Position numbers and translations under genes: made by a program. A model generated the notes under the pieces. The model was not told the origin of the DNA. It searched no databases and was given only the letters and a program-made list of their open reading frames with translations. From Clostridia bacterium (GTDB taxonomy: Bacteria > Bacillota > Clostridia > Saccharofermentanales > Saccharofermentanaceae): a DNA stretch of 64,000 nucleotides. This document shows positions 13,991-31,053 of this stretch, piece by piece. How positions within the stretch are numbered: position 1 is the first letter of the stretch; each line of letters starts with the position of its first letter. The stretch lies in assembly GCA_024403735.1 (NCBI GenBank), contig JAKSRG010000001.1, forward strand, positions 124,001-188,000, in the 5' to 3' direction.

Positions 13991-14776
13991 TTTGGCAATT
14001 ATTGTGTGGCAGGTATTATTGTGATTTTAACTAGTAATTATGATTTTGATTTGATAAAGCCTTTCTTCGAAGAAGGTCATGAAGGTTTTTGTCTTGAAAC
14101 ACATCTTCATACAGCTGATTCAAGTGCGTGTGGATGTGTTAATGCTAGAGATATGGTTCGCATGTATAAAAAAGCTGGTTATGATGGAGTGATTGTTACT
14201 GATCACTTTTTGACTGGTAATACATGTGTTAGTAGAGAACTTCCATGGAAAAAACAGGTTGAACGTTTCTTTCAGGGCTTCGAAGAAGCTTATGACGAAG
14301 GCCAAAAGATTGGATTAAGAATTTTCGAGGGCCTCGAATATAGTAACTTCGGTACTGATTTTATCGTACTAGGTCTTGATAGACAGTGGATTTGCGACAA
14401 TCAGGAAATGATTTATATGACACCAGATGAATTCTTGCCAATGTTTAAGAACGCTGGCGCTACTATTATTCAGGCACATCCATATCGTGAGGCTGATTAT
14501 ATTAGAACTGTTAGACCATACCCACATCTCGTAGATGCTATTGAAGTTGTTAACTTAGGTAATCGCGATGATGAGTGGAACAAAAAAGCTTATAAGTTAG
14601 CTCAAATGATGGATAAGCCAATGACTGGTGGTTCAGATTGTCATAGATTTGGTAATGATTATTTTGGTGCGGGTATCCGAATTGATCATGAACCTAAGGA
14701 TTTAGCTGAACTGTGCGAGATTATTAAGTCTGGTAAGGGTTTCCATTTTTTTGGAGGTTCAAGTGAGGTTAGATAA
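13988..14776 (+). CDS. PHP-domain metal-dependent phosphoesterase
   Basis: A 262-residue PHP (polymerase and histidinol phosphatase) protein. The metal-binding motifs are HLHTADSS (about 38-45), TDHF (about 71-74), QAHPYR (about 159-164) and GSDCHR (about 216-221). The family hydrolyses phosphoesters, from histidinol phosphate to nucleotides; the substrate here is unknown. The start is uncertain: ATG 13988 lies in a small inverted repeat, while GTG codons at 14006 and 14021 are alternatives, the latter after GGCAGGT. The stop overlaps the beginning of nagA, suggesting coupled expression. Confidence 0.85.
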   Translation: MFGNYCVAGIIVILTSNYDFDLIKPFFEEGHEGFCLETHLHTADSSACGCVNARDMVRMYKKAGYDGVIVTDHFLTGNTCVSRELPWKKQVERFFQGFEEAYDEGQKIGLRIFEGLEYSNFGTDFIVLGLDRQWICDNQEMIYMTPDEFLPMFKNAGATIIQAHPYREADYIRTVRPYPHLVDAIEVVNLGNRDDEWNKKAYKLAQMMDKPMTGGSDCHRFGNDYFGAGIRIDHEPKDLAELCEIIKSGKGFHFFGGSSEVR

Positions 14777-15938
14777 TGTAAGACTATTTGGATCAGATAA
14801 GTATCTGTCAATTGAAGTTGATGAGGCTACAGGTGAGATTATTAATATCATTTCATCTAGTATTCCTATGCCAACTACTAAGAATGGAACTAATCTTCTA
14901 GGTATGTACATTACACCTGGTTTTGTGGATACTCATATCCACGGTGCTTTTGGATATGATGTATGTGATATGGATAGCGCATCAATTATTGAAATATCTA
15001 AGGGATTGGCTGCCAAGGGTGTTTCTGCGTTCTGTCCTACTACAATGACTATTTCATTAGATAAGCTTTATAAGACAATTGATGCTGTATGGAATGCAAA
15101 AAAATCTTTGGAATTAGATGATACGCCTCATGCTGATATCCTTGGACTTCATTTGGAAGGCCCATTTCTTAACCCATCAAAGTGTGGAGTTCAGAATGTA
15201 GAGGACTCAATACTTCCGTCAAATGCATCTGAAGTTATTGACTATATCGAAAACAATTATCCTGGTCTCATGAAAATTGTTGATATCGCTCCTGAAATGG
15301 AAGGTGGTATTGACCTGTTATCTAAATACTCAGATAAATATGTTTTCTCAATTGCTCATTCTGAAGCTGATTACGATGTTTCTATTAGTGCTTTTAATGC
15401 AGGTGCTAAGAGTGTTACACATGTATTGAACGCAATGAATCCAATGCTTAAAAGGGCACCTGGAATATTAGGTGCTGCTATTGATTCAGATGTTTATGTT
15501 GAAGTTATTTCTGATGGACATCATATTCATAATTCATACCTCAAATTGCTTTATTCAGATGTTCTCGAAAAGTCTGTTATTACGGTGTCAGATTCAATGA
15601 GAGGCGCTGGAATGCCTAATGGTTTATATGATCTAGGTGGTGTAGAAGTAGAAGTAAGAGATGGAAGAACATATTTTGGTAAAGATGGCAATCTAGCTGG
15701 TTCTGTATCATGCCTTACAGAGGAGTTTGCTAATCTTTTTAATGCTGGAATTAATCCTGCAAGAATTATTAACTCAATGACGGTGACACCTCTTAGACGA
15801 CTAGGATTGTGTGACTTAACTTCATATGAAGAACTCATCGATATTGGTTCAATGGCAACTTTTAATATTTTCGATAATAATGCTAAAATGATTGGAGCAA
15901 TTAATAGAGGTAAAATCCTCTGGTTAGATGAGGTTTAA
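14763..15938 (+). CDS. nagA: N-acetylglucosamine-6-phosphate deacetylase
   Basis: A 391-residue amidohydrolase that converts GlcNAc-6-P to GlcN-6-P plus acetate in amino-sugar recycling. Motifs: TPGFVDTHIHG, HLEGPFLNPSKCG, AHSEA (usual GHSxA), THVLNAM, ISDGHH and VSDSM, which contains the catalytic Asp position (usual TDA). I start at GTG 14763 because GGAGG (14753-14757) is 5 bases upstream; a TTG at 14751 would leave no spacing. It overlaps the PHP gene by 14 bases and is followed 2 bases later by a Crp/Fnr regulator, so the three form one operon. No nagB is in the window. Confidence 0.94.
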   Translation: MRLDNVRLFGSDKYLSIEVDEATGEIINIISSSIPMPTTKNGTNLLGMYITPGFVDTHIHGAFGYDVCDMDSASIIEISKGLAAKGVSAFCPTTMTISLDKLYKTIDAVWNAKKSLELDDTPHADILGLHLEGPFLNPSKCGVQNVEDSILPSNASEVIDYIENNYPGLMKIVDIAPEMEGGIDLLSKYSDKYVFSIAHSEADYDVSISAFNAGAKSVTHVLNAMNPMLKRAPGILGAAIDSDVYVEVISDGHHIHNSYLKLLYSDVLEKSVITVSDSMRGAGMPNGLYDLGGVEVEVRDGRTYFGKDGNLAGSVSCLTEEFANLFNAGINPARIINSMTVTPLRRLGLCDLTSYEELIDIGSMATFNIFDNNAKMIGAINRGKILWLDEV

Positions 15939-15940
15939 TA

Positions 15941-16720
15941 ATGCTAGCAAATTGTTCCAGAAAAGTTGTGTGCGATTCTCCTTTGTTTGCAGGAGTTGAT
16001 GTGAACGATTTTAAGGATTTCTTCACGCGTACAAGAACTAGAAGTTATGATAAAGGTGAGATTATTGCTTCTGAAGGTAAGAATTGTACCTCAATTGGAA
16101 TTATTACTCAGGGACAGGTAGCTGTTCAGAAAATCTCTGGTAGTGGTGAGTTTGCAACAATTGCACTTCTAACTACAGGCGATTTCTTTGGTGAAGATAT
16201 GCTTTATAGTTCTAGCAGTGTTTTCACAACAACGCTTGAAGCGATGTCTAGTTGCGAAGTTCATTTTGTTAGTAAAGATATAATGAACGCTTTGATGATA
16301 CAAAGCCCTGTAGTAAAGGATAATTTCTTACGAATTCTGTCTGATAGACTTAAAGCTCAGAACAGAAGAATTGAGTTGTTATCTCAGAAAACCCTTAGAG
16401 AGAAGATAGCTTATTATCTTATAGATTTATTTAATCAGCAGCGCGGAAATAAGGTCGAAGTAGAGTCAGATTCTTGTCAGGGATGTGACTATTATGGAAC
16501 AGTATCTTGTAAGTACCCAAGTGCTTCTCGTAAGGTTGTTTTACCAGTATCTAAAGAAGTTGTAGCAAAGTTTTTGGCTATGCCTAGACCATCTTTTTCA
16601 AGAGAATTAATTGCAATGGAAAAGGATGGATTAATCAAAGTTGATGGTCGAGTTATCACACTTTGTGATGTTTCTAAGCTCGAAACAGAGATTGTAGAAG
16701 GACTAGCCGCAAATAACTAA
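15941..16720 (+). CDS. Crp/Fnr-family regulator with a Cys-containing insertion
   Basis: A 259-residue protein: cyclic-nucleotide-binding-type beta roll (about 12-125, with GEIIASEG and LTTGDFFGED), dimerisation helix (about 126-165) and HTH_Crp domain with VSKEVVAKFLAMPRPSFSREL (203-223). Between the dimer helix and the recognition region is an extra segment, about residues 171-200, containing CQGC (179-182) and Cys190. There are also Cys at 5, 11, 49 and 105. Usual family members have only a few residues here. The cluster could bind metal or an Fe-S centre, or sense redox, but that is inference. It starts 2 bases after nagA and probably answers to the same condition. Confidence 0.88.
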   Translation: MLANCSRKVVCDSPLFAGVDVNDFKDFFTRTRTRSYDKGEIIASEGKNCTSIGIITQGQVAVQKISGSGEFATIALLTTGDFFGEDMLYSSSSVFTTTLEAMSSCEVHFVSKDIMNALMIQSPVVKDNFLRILSDRLKAQNRRIELLSQKTLREKIAYYLIDLFNQQRGNKVEVESDSCQGCDYYGTVSCKYPSASRKVVLPVSKEVVAKFLAMPRPSFSRELIAMEKDGLIKVDGRVITLCDVSKLETEIVEGLAANN

Positions 16721-16747: not shown

Positions 16748-16777
16748 TATCATTAGATTTTTCTGGAGGAGCGCGTT

Positions 16778-18181
16778 TTGGATTCCTTAACAAAGTTTGT
16801 AGATTTTATCGAAGAGTTGTTTAAGAGTCTTAGCAATGGTTATCTGTTTTTTGGTAGCATTGCAGATTTAATACGTTCATTTTGTGATATAGCTCTTATT
16901 GCGTTCCTTGTATATTGGGCTCTCGTATTTATTAAGCATAGTAGAGCTTGGCAGCTAATTAAAGGTATCATTTTTGTATACGCATTTGTTTTCCTTTGTA
17001 GTTTGTTTGGACTACAAATGGTTGGCTTCTTGTTCAGTAACTTCCTTTATATCTTTGCGATTATGTTCGTAGTTATTTTCCAGCCTGAACTTCGAAGAGC
17101 ACTTGAGACTGTAGGTATTAAGTCTTTTACATCAATTCGTGATGTAGTTGTTGGTAATTCAGTTGAGAACAAAGATCAGGCAGTGACACTCATTGATGAG
17201 ATTTGCGATGCTTGTAATGAGATGTGTAAGACTTATACTGGCGCATTGATGCTTTTGGAACGTAACACTAAGTTAGATGAACTTATGACACAGGAGAATG
17301 CTGTATCGTTAGAAGCAACTGTAACTAGTATGTTCCTTCAGTCTTTGTTTTATAAAGGCGCTCCAATGCATGATGGTGCCGCACTTATTAGAGATGGTAA
17401 GGTTATTGCAGCTCGTTGTCATATCAATGCTCCTGTTACTTTGCATCAGCTCGAGAGATCAGGAACTCGTCATAAGGCCGCAGTAGCAGCTAGTGAGATG
17501 GGTGATACAATTGCTATTGCTGTATCTGAAGAGAGAGGTAAGACATCTATTGCTCTTAATGGACAACTCTATGAGATGAAGAATACTAATGAACTTAGAG
17601 CTAATCTCATGTATTTGTTCGGATTGTCTGATGTTAATGAGAATAAGAAGGGTATTGGTGGAGCTATCAAAGGCCTTTCAAAGAAAAAGTCATCAAAGGC
17701 ATCTGCTAATACAACTAAAGTTGTTGTTGCTCAGAGTGAACCAGAAGTTTCTAGTGAAAAGCCAAATATGGCTAATGGTATTAAGAATTTCGAGAAGGTT
17801 AATAATAAGGCTTCTGTATCTGAGAAAGTTATGTTGCTTGTTGTCTCAATCTTAATCTCAACTGGTTTGTGGATTTATATTCAGATTAATAATAATCCTG
17901 TTGTGAATAAGCATTATACAGTTCCTATTACTTACACAAATGCGTCACTTAATTACCAAGTTTCTTATCCAGTTGATACAGTTGAAGTAACAATTGTTGG
18001 TAGACAGAAGACTTTAGAGAAGATTACTGCTAATAGCATTTCTGCAACAATTGATTTTAGTGGTATTGAAGAGTCAGGTGTATTTGAGTGTCCTGTAATA
18101 GTTGAATCTAAGGATTCGAAAACTTACTTCCGTGTAGAGCAGCAGATACCTGGAAATATATCTGTAACTGTTTTCAAGTAA
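16778..18181 (+). CDS. cdaA: Diadenylate cyclase CdaA fused to a YbbR (CdaR-like) domain
   Basis: A 467-residue protein. Residues about 25-110 carry three membrane helices and IFQPELRRALE, the CdaA signature. The DAC catalytic domain follows with MHDGAALI (DGA at 199-201) and GTRHKAAVAASE (229-240; the family has RHR, here RHK). It makes c-di-AMP from two ATP. After a K/S-rich linker (about 285-345) there is a fourth hydrophobic segment (about 351-370) and one YbbR repeat, the domain of the CdaA regulator CdaR/YbbR. In well-studied Firmicutes cdaA and cdaR are separate genes followed by glmM; here both are one chain with no glmM nearby. TTG start with GGAGG 8 bases upstream. Confidence 0.92.
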   Translation: MDSLTKFVDFIEELFKSLSNGYLFFGSIADLIRSFCDIALIAFLVYWALVFIKHSRAWQLIKGIIFVYAFVFLCSLFGLQMVGFLFSNFLYIFAIMFVVIFQPELRRALETVGIKSFTSIRDVVVGNSVENKDQAVTLIDEICDACNEMCKTYTGALMLLERNTKLDELMTQENAVSLEATVTSMFLQSLFYKGAPMHDGAALIRDGKVIAARCHINAPVTLHQLERSGTRHKAAVAASEMGDTIAIAVSEERGKTSIALNGQLYEMKNTNELRANLMYLFGLSDVNENKKGIGGAIKGLSKKKSSKASANTTKVVVAQSEPEVSSEKPNMANGIKNFEKVNNKASVSEKVMLLVVSILISTGLWIYIQINNNPVVNKHYTVPITYTNASLNYQVSYPVDTVEVTIVGRQKTLEKITANSISATIDFSGIEESGVFECPVIVESKDSKTYFRVEQQIPGNISVTVFK

Positions 18182-18204: not shown

Positions 18205-18242
18205 AACCACTTGGACCTAATGTTCAAGTGGTTAAATTTTTG
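18205..18242 (+). terminator. Terminator after cdaA
   Basis: AACCACTTG (18205-18213) pairs perfectly with CAAGTGGTT (18225-18233), followed by AAATTTTT. Confidence 0.85.
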
Positions 18243-26615: not shown

Positions 26616-27809
26616 ATGAAAGTTGGTTTGTTCGGTGGATCATTTGATCCAATTCATAAAGGGCATATTTCTATAATTGAAGGTGCTCTTAAGAAAATGG
26701 ACTATATCGTAGTTATTCCTTCCGCGCGTAATTCTTTTAAGCGCGGAAGAATACTTAATCCAGCTCCATATCGTTATTATATGACTGTGGATGCGATGGA
26801 AAAATTCGATAATAGAGTTATAGTTTCTGATATAGAATTTAGTATTCCTGGAATTAGCTATACATATCTGACTATTAGCAAGCTTTTGGAAAACAACTAC
26901 CTTAACAATCTTATCGGTACAAAAGAAGATATTGATTTGTTTTGGATTTGTGGTTCAGATATTCTGAAGTCTTTTGATAAATGGCGTAATCCTGAGAAGA
27001 TTTTGGAGAAAACTACTTTATTAGTTGCTAGAAGACCTGGTGAAGATGACACTTTTATAGATGATATTGAACGTCTTCAGAATATGTACAATACGAAGAT
27101 TAAGACATTTAATATCAAGGGTGTTGAGGCAGCTTCTTCTAGTCTTAGAGATGAGCTTGTAGAGAAGAAGATTCAAAATGTAGTATCTGATTTCATTAAA
27201 ACTCATGATTTGTATCTAGAAGTTAATTACTTGGATTATTGTTCTGACAAAGCTATTGAAGAGTTTTACGAATACTGTATTTCTCTATACTTTATTCTTA
27301 GACGTAAAAGACTTTTGCATACTATAAATGTTGCGATTATGTCAGTTAAGTTTGCTGTTCATCATAATATTGATCCAGACAAAGCATTGATAGCAGGTGT
27401 CCTTCATGATTGTGCCAAAGAATTAGATAAAGAAGTGCAATCAAAGTATTCTATGGAGATTGGCGGACCCGATTTTGATGTAGATAAGCTTTGGCATGGT
27501 CCAGCAGGTGTTAAGTATGCTAGAGATGTCTTAAATGTTACTGATGTCGAGATCCTTGATGCAATTAAATATCATACAACTGGTCGTCCTGGTATGACTG
27601 GATTAGATAAAGTTGTATATCTTGCGGATAAACTTGAACCAGCAAGAACCTATGATGATTTGGAAGCTATTCGTATAATAGCTGAGAAAGATTTAGATCA
27701 AGCAATGGTTATTAGTATTAATGAATTCAAAAAGAAATTAATACAAAAGAAAATGGAAATGCATCCGTTGACTCTTGCTTGTTTGAAGGAACTCGGAGAT
27801 AATAAATAA
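26616..27809 (+). CDS. NadD-YqeK fusion: NaMN adenylyltransferase plus HD-domain Ap4A hydrolase
   Basis: A 397-residue two-domain protein. Residues 1 to about 200 are nicotinate-nucleotide adenylyltransferase: GGSFDPIHKGH (7-17), the DLFWICGSDILKSFDKWRNP segment and the SSSLRDEL motif (about 173). From about residue 215 there is a YqeK HD domain: HTINVAIMSVKFA, VLHDCAKELD (HD about 264-265), HGPAGVKYAR and DAIKYHTTGRPGM. NadD makes deamido-NAD; YqeK proteins hydrolyse Ap4A. In B. subtilis they are adjacent separate genes followed by rsfS, as rsfS follows here. Confidence 0.95.
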   Translation: MKVGLFGGSFDPIHKGHISIIEGALKKMDYIVVIPSARNSFKRGRILNPAPYRYYMTVDAMEKFDNRVIVSDIEFSIPGISYTYLTISKLLENNYLNNLIGTKEDIDLFWICGSDILKSFDKWRNPEKILEKTTLLVARRPGEDDTFIDDIERLQNMYNTKIKTFNIKGVEAASSSLRDELVEKKIQNVVSDFIKTHDLYLEVNYLDYCSDKAIEEFYEYCISLYFILRRKRLLHTINVAIMSVKFAVHHNIDPDKALIAGVLHDCAKELDKEVQSKYSMEIGGPDFDVDKLWHGPAGVKYARDVLNVTDVEILDAIKYHTTGRPGMTGLDKVVYLADKLEPARTYDDLEAIRIIAEKDLDQAMVISINEFKKKLIQKKMEMHPLTLACLKELGDNK

Positions 27810-28967: not shown

Positions 28968-29220
28968 CTAAAAGCGATGACAAGGACACGTGCCTTAGAT
29001 TAGACGTCTACAGAGAATTGAAGTTATTAGCTGAGAGCTTCATAGATAGGATTTATGGTATACAACCTTCGAGCTGCTGGGGTAAATCTATTTCTTAGAG
29101 TAACCTACGCCGTTGAGAGCTACGTTAGTGCTAAATGAGTGGTACGCGAAGATATTATGCGTGCAATATGGGTGGAACCGTGCAACCATGCATCCCATTG
29201 TTTGGGGCATGGTGTTTTTT
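28968..29220 (+). ncRNA. T-box leader of thrS
   Basis: The 347-base gap before thrS holds a T-box. AGCGATGACAAGGACACG (from 28973) is the typical 5' side of stem I with the GA-rich loop. A candidate Thr specifier ACC is at 29103-29105. A stem III (GTACGC 29142-29147 with GCGTGC 29159-29164) precedes the T-box proper TGGGTGGAACCGTG (29169-29182). The terminator pairs ACCATGCATCCCA (29185-29197) with TGGGGCATGGT (29203-29213), then T6. Uncharged tRNA-Thr should favour the antiterminator and read-through into thrS. The exact 5' end is estimated and the specifier choice is by eye. Confidence 0.92.
29185..29220 (+). terminator. T-box regulatory terminator
   Basis: A hairpin 29185-29213 followed by TTTTTT (29215-29220); it competes with the antiterminator formed by the T-box sequence at 29169-29182. 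Confidence 0.9.
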
Positions 29221-29274: not shown

Positions 29275-31053
29275 ATGGTAGATTTTAATGATGAAGCTCA
29301 AAGAAAGATGTACAGACACACAACTGCACACGTTATGGCACAGGCAGTAAAGAGATTATGGCCTGACACAAAACTTACTATTGGTCCTGCTATTGACGAT
29401 GGTTTTTACTATGACTTCCAGCATGAAGGAACATTCTCAGTTGAAGATTTGAAGAAGATTGAAGACGAGATGAAGAAGATTATTAAGGAGAATCTCCCAC
29501 TTGAGAGATTTGAACTCCCTAGAGCAGAAGCTGTTAAGTTCATGGAGGAGAGAAACGAGCCATTCAAGGTAGAACTTATTAATGATCTTCCTGATGATGC
29601 AGTTATCTCATTCTATAAGCAGGGTGATTTTGTTGATCTTTGTGCTGGTCCTCATATCGAGAGAACAGGTGAGATTAAAGCATTTAAACTCACATCAACA
29701 TCTGCTTCATATTGGAGAGGTGACTCAAATAGAGAGAGCCTTCAGAGAATTTATGGTACATCATTCCCTAATAAGGATATGCTTAATGAGTATCTTACAA
29801 AGCTTGAAGAAGCTAAGAAGCGTGACCATAACAAGCTTGGTCGTGAACTCGAGTATTTTACAACAGTAGATTACATCGGTCAGGGTCTTCCTATTCTTCT
29901 TCCAAAGGGTACAAAGGTTATCCAGATTCTCCAGAGATGGGTAGAGGACTTGGAAGCATCTAAGGGTTGTATCCTTACAAAGACACCTCTTATGGCTAAG
30001 CGTGATCTTTATAAGATTTCTGGTCACTGGGATCATTATTTGGATGGAATGTTCGTTATGGGTGATCCAGCTGATGAGACAAAGGAGTGTTTTGCTCTTC
30101 GTCCTATGACATGTCCATTCCAGTATCAGGTATACCTTAACAGACAGAGAAGTTATAGAGATCTTCCTATGAGACTTACAGAAACATCAACACTCTTCCG
30201 TAATGAGGATAGTGGTGAGATGCATGGTCTTATCAGAGTTCGTCAGTTCACAATTTCTGAAGGTCACTATATCTTGAGACCTGATCAGCTCGAAGAAGAG
30301 TTCAAGGGATGTTTGGAACTTGCTAAGTACTGTCTTGATACAGTTGGTCTTCTTGATGACTGTACATTCAGATTCTCACAGTGGGATCCAGCTAACCCTA
30401 AGAATAAGTATGAAGGTACAAAAGAGCAGTGGGAAGAGGCTCAGGCTACAATGGGTAAGATCCTTGATAATCTTGGTGTTAAGTACTCAATTGGTATTGA
30501 TGAGGCTGCTTTCTATGGTCCTAAGCTTGATATTCAGTACAAGAATGTATTCGGCAAGGAAGATACACTTGTAACAATTCAGATTGATATGCTTCTTGCT
30601 AAGAAGTTTGGTATGGAATATATCGATGCTGATGGTTCAAAGAAGAATCCTTACATCATTCATAGAACAAGCCTTGGTTGCTATGAGAGAACTCTTGCAT
30701 ATCTTATTGAGAAGTATGCTGGTGTGCTTCCACTTTGGATGGCTCCAGAGCAGGTTAGAATTCTTCCTATCTCTGATAAGCAGGTTGATAAGGCATATGA
30801 GGTTCGTGACTACTTGAGAAGCCGTGGTCTTAGAGCAGAAGTTGACGATAGAAGCGAGAAGGTTGGTAAGAAGATTCGTGAAGCTAGACTTGATAAGCTT
30901 ATCTACTGGTTCGTAATCGGTGATAACGAAGTTGAGAACAATACAGTTGCTGTAAGCTCAAGATTTGAGCAGGGTTCAGAGACACTCTCTGTAGAAGCAG
31001 CTGCTGATAAGCTTCTCGATGAAGTAAAGAATTATGTAAGAAGAGATGTTTAA
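29275..31053 (+). CDS. thrS: Threonyl-tRNA synthetase without TGS domain
   Basis: A 592-residue class II synthetase. It opens directly with the editing domain (HTTAH about 15-19; CAGPH further on), so the N-terminal TGS domain of about 60 residues seen in E. coli and B. subtilis enzymes is missing. The catalytic core keeps three zinc ligands: Cys in RPMTCPFQ (family MNCPGH), His in ISEGH and His in IIHRTSLGCYERTL. The anticodon-binding domain is at the C-terminus (APEQVRILPISDKQ onward). AAGGAGGT precedes the ATG 55 bases after the T-box terminator. Several core positions differ from the E. coli type, suggesting a separate ThrRS branch. Confidence 0.95.
   Translation: MVDFNDEAQRKMYRHTTAHVMAQAVKRLWPDTKLTIGPAIDDGFYYDFQHEGTFSVEDLKKIEDEMKKIIKENLPLERFELPRAEAVKFMEERNEPFKVELINDLPDDAVISFYKQGDFVDLCAGPHIERTGEIKAFKLTSTSASYWRGDSNRESLQRIYGTSFPNKDMLNEYLTKLEEAKKRDHNKLGRELEYFTTVDYIGQGLPILLPKGTKVIQILQRWVEDLEASKGCILTKTPLMAKRDLYKISGHWDHYLDGMFVMGDPADETKECFALRPMTCPFQYQVYLNRQRSYRDLPMRLTETSTLFRNEDSGEMHGLIRVRQFTISEGHYILRPDQLEEEFKGCLELAKYCLDTVGLLDDCTFRFSQWDPANPKNKYEGTKEQWEEAQATMGKILDNLGVKYSIGIDEAAFYGPKLDIQYKNVFGKEDTLVTIQIDMLLAKKFGMEYIDADGSKKNPYIIHRTSLGCYERTLAYLIEKYAGVLPLWMAPEQVRILPISDKQVDKAYEVRDYLRSRGLRAEVDDRSEKVGKKIREARLDKLIYWFVIGDNEVENNTVAVSSRFEQGSETLSVEAAADKLLDEVKNYVRRDV

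Follow-up and report, generated by a model that had tools for sequence, protein, structure and literature searches.

The locus considered here raises the question whether the diadenylate cyclase CdaA and its regulator CdaR, otherwise known as separate products of a cdaA-cdaR-glmM operon (PMC8573169), are joined in a single protein, and, if so, whether this protein is a local peculiarity or a regular form of the module. The window (i.e., the whole stretch of 64,000 nucleotides analysed) belongs to a genome of 2.66 Mb in 59 contigs with a completeness of 99.5%.

Structure of the fused gene

The gene consists of one uninterrupted frame of 467 codons with zero internal stops (Table 1). The preliminary description had named two results that would count against its own reading, a stop between the two parts and a C-terminal part without a YbbR match. 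Neither applies, and all three domains of the encoded protein exceed the Pfam gathering cut-offs: CdaA_N with 31.1 bits (E 2.7e-7; cut-off 23.8), DAC with 102.4 bits (E 1.5e-29; cut-off 27), and YbbR with 30.6 bits (E 4.4e-7; cut-off 22.3). CdaA and a CdaR part are hence united in one protein, as previously claimed, and the fused gene is confirmed as real. The positions given earlier for the DGA and GTRHK motifs agree with ours, only a single YbbR match is found, and a 1:1 stoichiometry of the CdaA and CdaR parts follows from the single-chain construction. Equally, the K/S-rich linker (12 K and 8 S, net charge +7) and a further membrane helix were recovered; hydrophobic peaks are situated near residues 34-52, 64-82, 82-100, and 352-370. 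In profile searches of the whole genome, the fusion gene provides both the sole DAC match and the sole YbbR match, such that its product is, judging from these profiles, the only recognisable c-di-AMP synthase of the cell.

Table 1. Features of the fused gene and its surroundings (positions in the window; residues of the 467-aa protein).
Feature	Position	Strand	Basis or remark
nagA-like amidohydrolase gene, upstream	14751..15938	+	Amidohydro_1; usual neighbour in the genus
Crp/FNR-type regulator gene, directly upstream	15941..16720	+	neighbour conserved in close relatives
Shine-Dalgarno-like GGAGG	16765..16769	+	8 nt 5' of TTG
cdaA-cdaR fusion gene (CdaAR)	16778..18181	+	467 aa, TTG start
CdaA_N three-helix membrane part, residues 32-104	16871..17089	+	Pfam PF19293; model helices
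DAC catalytic domain, residues 144-263	17207..17566	+	Pfam PF02457; Foldseek
HDGA motif, residues 198-201	17369..17380	+	close relatives mostly HDGG
CHINAP, residues 214-219, in place of near-invariant CHVPLS	17417..17434	+	comparison with relatives
GTRHK, residues 229-233, where relatives carry GTRHR	17462..17476	+	comparison with relatives
K-rich cytoplasmic linker, unconserved, residues 286-346, net +7	17633..17815	+	alignment; low pLDDT
Fourth membrane helix (TM4), CdaR anchor, residues 347-372	17816..17893	+	model; hydrophobicity
Single YbbR repeat, residues 382-465, CdaR repeat 1	17921..18172	+	Pfam PF07949; repeat test
Intrinsic-terminator-like hairpin with T tail, 3' of the fusion gene	18205..18233	+	

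Concerning the predicted structure, an AlphaFold model (alignment of 23 rows, mean pLDDT 71.7, pTM 0.39) contains helices at residues 28-54, 56-76, and 80-101, followed by the DAC fold, a stretch of low confidence (287-343, pLDDT < 50), a further helix (347-372), and beta strands up to residue 466. The top Foldseek matches are the CdaA catalytic domains of B. subtilis and L. monocytogenes (TMt about 0.9), with B. subtilis CdaA 9g0g as the best one (TMt 0.90). A search for a solved CdaR structure, with one outgroup CdaR as query, returned none; an alignment profile matches 2kxy weakly (E 3.5e-4). The model fits a layout in which the DAC domain and the basic linker would be cytoplasmic and TM4 would be followed by an outward-facing YbbR part, as in the separate CdaA and CdaR proteins, the membrane topology of which has been described (PMC8316131). 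Owing to the pTM of 0.39, the relative placement of the domains and a contact between TM4 and TM1-3 are proposals only.

Two further features of the window were noted in passing. At 26616-27809 (+), a nadD-type adenylyltransferase and a YqeK-type HD hydrolase apparently form one frame of 397 aa, as judged by eye, which would be a second fusion of neighbouring functions. An ordinary T-box leader (28968-29200, +; 94.8 bits, just above gathering) precedes a threonyl-tRNA synthetase-like frame at 29275.

Distribution of the fusion

A DAC domain is carried by 108 of the 115 genomes of the family and by 176 of the 188 genomes of the order, which we take to be Saccharofermentanales of GTDB. The DNA of 138 loci with a DAC motif was read, and after removal of partial, non-fused, and duplicate copies 111 distinct fused sequences remained, the window included. 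Every complete copy examined, from four families of the order, is fused, and in an alignment of 40 sequences from these four families invariant positions occur in the DAC domain as well as in TM4/YbbR. Among the relatives are Mageeibacillus UBA MAGs, Ruminococcaceae bacterium YRB3002, Candidatus Scatonaster, and other Clostridia, several of them from rumen or gut. The earlier reading of the protein as a fusion of CdaA with one YbbR repeat is correct in itself, but the architecture is not peculiar to this protein: it is the standard arrangement, fixed across the whole order, and no local oddity. The literature search found no description of it; a 2023 survey of DAC architectures lay outside that search, and prior mention is possible.

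Outside the order, a profile of the fusion was run against 391 genomes from the class and 398 from the phylum (a few order members being contained in both sets, and some genomes shared between them). Among the 150 best matches of each search, an uninterrupted match through YbbR is restricted to members of the order, and no fusion was found in about 375 other Clostridia or about 384 other genomes of the phylum; a rare distant fusion may exist among weaker matches beyond these 150. In the sampled outsiders, cdaA and cdaR each have an ORF of their own, and frequently the one adjoins the other in the same frame. Five candidates for independent fusions in the class and nine in the phylum proved to consist of separate cdaA and cdaR ORFs, and since the DNA of such candidates reads cdaA, stop, cdaR, a long open frame in the search table is not in itself proof of fusion. 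Four short frames are cut by contig ends. An apparently non-fused member of the order (family f1, G107:C64:1458-2892), in which cdaA (304 aa) stands apart beside a frame of 340 aa that gives three YbbR matches, was rejected as a likely contaminant, because the same genome (6% contamination) also holds a copy of the fusion.

At twelve loci outside the order, cdaA and cdaR lie in the same frame and one stop codon is all that separates them.

Given that the two genes so often abut outside the order, a single base error could mimic a fusion, and an artefact of assembly, frameshift, or gene calling would have to be considered. However, intact frames of 400-570 aa occur in independent assemblies throughout the order, a linker stands where the intergenic junction would be, and the additional YbbR repeats are missing order-wide. 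The same build in 111 distinct sequences from independent assemblies means that the fusion is neither chance nor assembly error, and the probability left to an artefact is negligible.

Origin of the fusion and gene neighbourhood

When the CdaA parts of 31 fused and 16 separate sequences were placed in a tree, a branch with 100/100 support grouped all fused sequences together; the tree shows a single origin for the CdaA part of the fused form. The fused YbbR repeat, taken without the TM helix, was made into a profile and compared to outgroup CdaR proteins, in which mostly 2-4 repeats are recognised by Pfam. Repeat 1 scored best in 17 of 17 proteins, showing the kept part to be, by sequence similarity, the first repeat of CdaR together with its TM helix.

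Concerning the surroundings, a same-strand glmM homologue mostly follows next in families f2-f4 and in part of f1, several times followed in turn by glmS. At the level of gene order, this shows an evident descent of the fusion from a cdaA-cdaR-glmM operon whose first two genes merged. In the genus of the window, the nagA-like upstream gene is widely conserved; glmM is found nearby in some species and a hexapeptide transferase in others, whereas the window possesses neither, glmM and the hexapeptide gene being located together on contig C6 of the genome. The preliminary description had listed the missing glmM neighbour among the reasons why regulation of c-di-AMP may differ. It is indeed missing at this locus, but as the succession fusion-glmM(-glmS) persists in families f2-f4 and in part of f1, its absence is a secondary rearrangement, and with glmM present elsewhere in the genome a loss of GlmM control does not follow from the neighbourhood.

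The proposed course is that the fusion arose once, in the ancestor of the order, when the stop that separated cdaA from cdaR in a canonical cdaA-cdaR-glmM(-glmS) operon disappeared, the two genes probably having been in frame beforehand, and that CdaR repeats 2-n were lost as well. Several outgroups have cdaA and cdaR directly adjoining in one frame, separated by a single stop codon, so that loss of this stop would be an easy path to fusion; the order's own ancestor presumably had this layout as well, and the fusion may have occurred in a single step.

Active site of the window protein

The preliminary description had pointed to the change from RHR to RHK. This change is unusual, since position 233, the last of RHR, is R in 110 of the 111 distinct sequences and K in the window alone, but the departure is not limited to it: P217N, L218A, and G237A are likewise found in the window only. 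All four substitutions sit at DAC positions that are otherwise 99% conserved. Counting the 56 DAC columns with at least 95% conservation, the window departs at five, whereas the mean of the others is 0.63 and a few distant members of the order reach 5-7. In the same comparison of 111 sequences, no departure at conserved columns was found in TM1-3 or in TM4-YbbR of the window. The loop around N217/A218 presumably contacts the nucleotide. By alignment, these residues correspond approximately to B. subtilis CdaA 189-190, beside position 187, which is mutated in structure 6hvn (Y187A). The motifs of B. subtilis CdaA are D171GA and R203HR (PMC8573169), and in DisA of M. tuberculosis a replacement of RHR by AAA abolishes both ATP binding and activity (PMC3328451). 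Although the change to RHK is conservative and the fusion family overall carries RHR, the window protein is on account of RHK best termed a divergent CdaA-type protein, rather than CdaA without qualification.

DAC proteins normally possess HDGA. Among the 138 fusion loci, 77 exhibit HDGG (four loci were noted as examples) and 61 HDGA; the window belongs to the latter group, in contrast to its closest relatives, which carry HDGG.

The four substitutions could mean that the DAC of the window species is being inactivated or strongly weakened, with c-di-AMP synthesis lost or minimal, which would agree with the long terminal branch of the window in the tree (0.43, vs 0.042 and 0.11 for two sister sequences). 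This is improbable, however, for the frame is intact, the TM and YbbR parts are free of departures at conserved sites, D199, R231, and H232 are kept, and the fusion is the only DAC of a genome that also possesses a PgpH-type protein and a c-di-AMP riboswitch. This riboswitch (RF00379, 55 bits) lies at C1:117072-117192 (+), around 7 kb left of the window start, and a citrate synthase gene follows 81 nt downstream of it. In addition to the PgpH-type 7TM-HD protein, the genome contains TrkA/KtrA-like genes and a TrkH/KtrB transporter (KtrAB). GdpP was considered as well, but the longest DHH-protein frame is RecJ-like, and the PgpH-type protein was found instead. As the sole DAC in a genome with riboswitch, PgpH, and KtrAB, the fusion protein can be argued to be active: c-di-AMP signalling looks live, and the window protein probably retains cyclase activity. 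A tentative and rather speculative idea is that the window cyclase is re-tuned, its four changes in the nucleotide loop and RHR region, confined to DAC, altering rate, feedback, or substrate choice alongside the riboswitch upstream of citrate synthase.

Citrate synthase is an unexpected target of a c-di-AMP riboswitch, and 58 other species of the genus, searched with stricter filters, yielded no such riboswitch.

Proposed regulation in one chain

CdaR contacts the TM region of CdaA, on which it can have an activating or a repressing effect (PMC8573169, PMC8316131), and disruption of ybbR in S. aureus raises c-di-AMP (PMC11520302); the manner of this control has been called unclear (PMC8573169). 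Our main reading, to which we assign a probability of roughly 75%, is that the fusion protein constitutes an ancestral, constitutively coupled CdaA-CdaR of one origin, with the cyclase joined via a flexible linker to the TM helix and repeat 1 of CdaR and regulated in cis. Three helices would anchor the cytoplasmic DAC domain at the membrane, and TM4 would place YbbR outside it and pack on TM1-3, like a separate CdaR acting in trans, such that the state of the envelope could be passed in cis to the oligomerisation of DAC. The stoichiometry of CdaA and CdaR would be an obligate 1:1, and GlmM would still act from the cytoplasm. Obligate cis regulation and continued GlmM control are proposed features of this reading, and an altered regulation of c-di-AMP by the fusion, as proposed earlier, is plausible. 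The sign of the effect of the CdaR part cannot be predicted, because CdaR both activates and represses CdaA (PMC8573169; PMC11520302). Against the main reading count the four substitutions of the window DAC at positions with 99% conservation elsewhere, one of them in the RHR motif, as well as the low pTM of the model and the modest sequence conservation of YbbR.

The YbbR part might instead be a structural remnant or second anchor, in a plain CdaA set by GlmM and metabolites and no longer regulated by the truncated CdaR. The loss of CdaR repeats 2-n, a linker which is unconserved in sequence and between 22 and 119 aa long, and the presence of only 8 columns with at least 95% conservation in TM4+YbbR (vs 56 in DAC) would agree with this. 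It is nevertheless rather unlikely, considering that TM4+YbbR is retained in all complete copies of the four families, that P374 and R409 are invariant and W365 is nearly so in the 40-sequence alignment, and that the window keeps 8 of the 8 conserved columns.

Comparison with known systems

The fusion protein resembles CdaA (DacA) of Bacillota in CdaA_N and DAC, in the D-G-A motif, and in the fold match to solved structures, but adds the linker, TM4, and a YbbR repeat, and in the window exhibits RHK for RHR; against the CdaA equivalog TIGR00159 of NCBIfam it scores 158.8 bits, below the cut-off of 188.8. With CdaR/YbbR it shares a TM helix and, after it, a YbbR repeat that corresponds to repeat 1, whereas a separate gene is lacking and there is one repeat instead of the mostly 2-4 in the outgroup proteins scanned. 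Many lineages of the order have glmM, and several times also glmS, behind the fusion, which recalls the known operon, except that its first two genes are merged and glmM of the window genome lies on another contig. DisA, CdaS, CdaM, and DacZ have the DAC domain in common with the fusion, but their profiles score below that of CdaA and they possess no YbbR part. The best reading is that of a variant of the CdaA/CdaR module, the component parts of which are already known and the one-chain form of which is fixed across an order.

As a single-chain CdaA-CdaR, the protein would show what evolution has kept as sufficient, i.e., the TM helix and repeat 1, and it may serve structural and biochemical studies as a stoichiometric complex that is locked covalently. 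Across the order, fusions that have a glmM neighbour and fusions that lack one would constitute a natural comparison of envelope and metabolic control of c-di-AMP.
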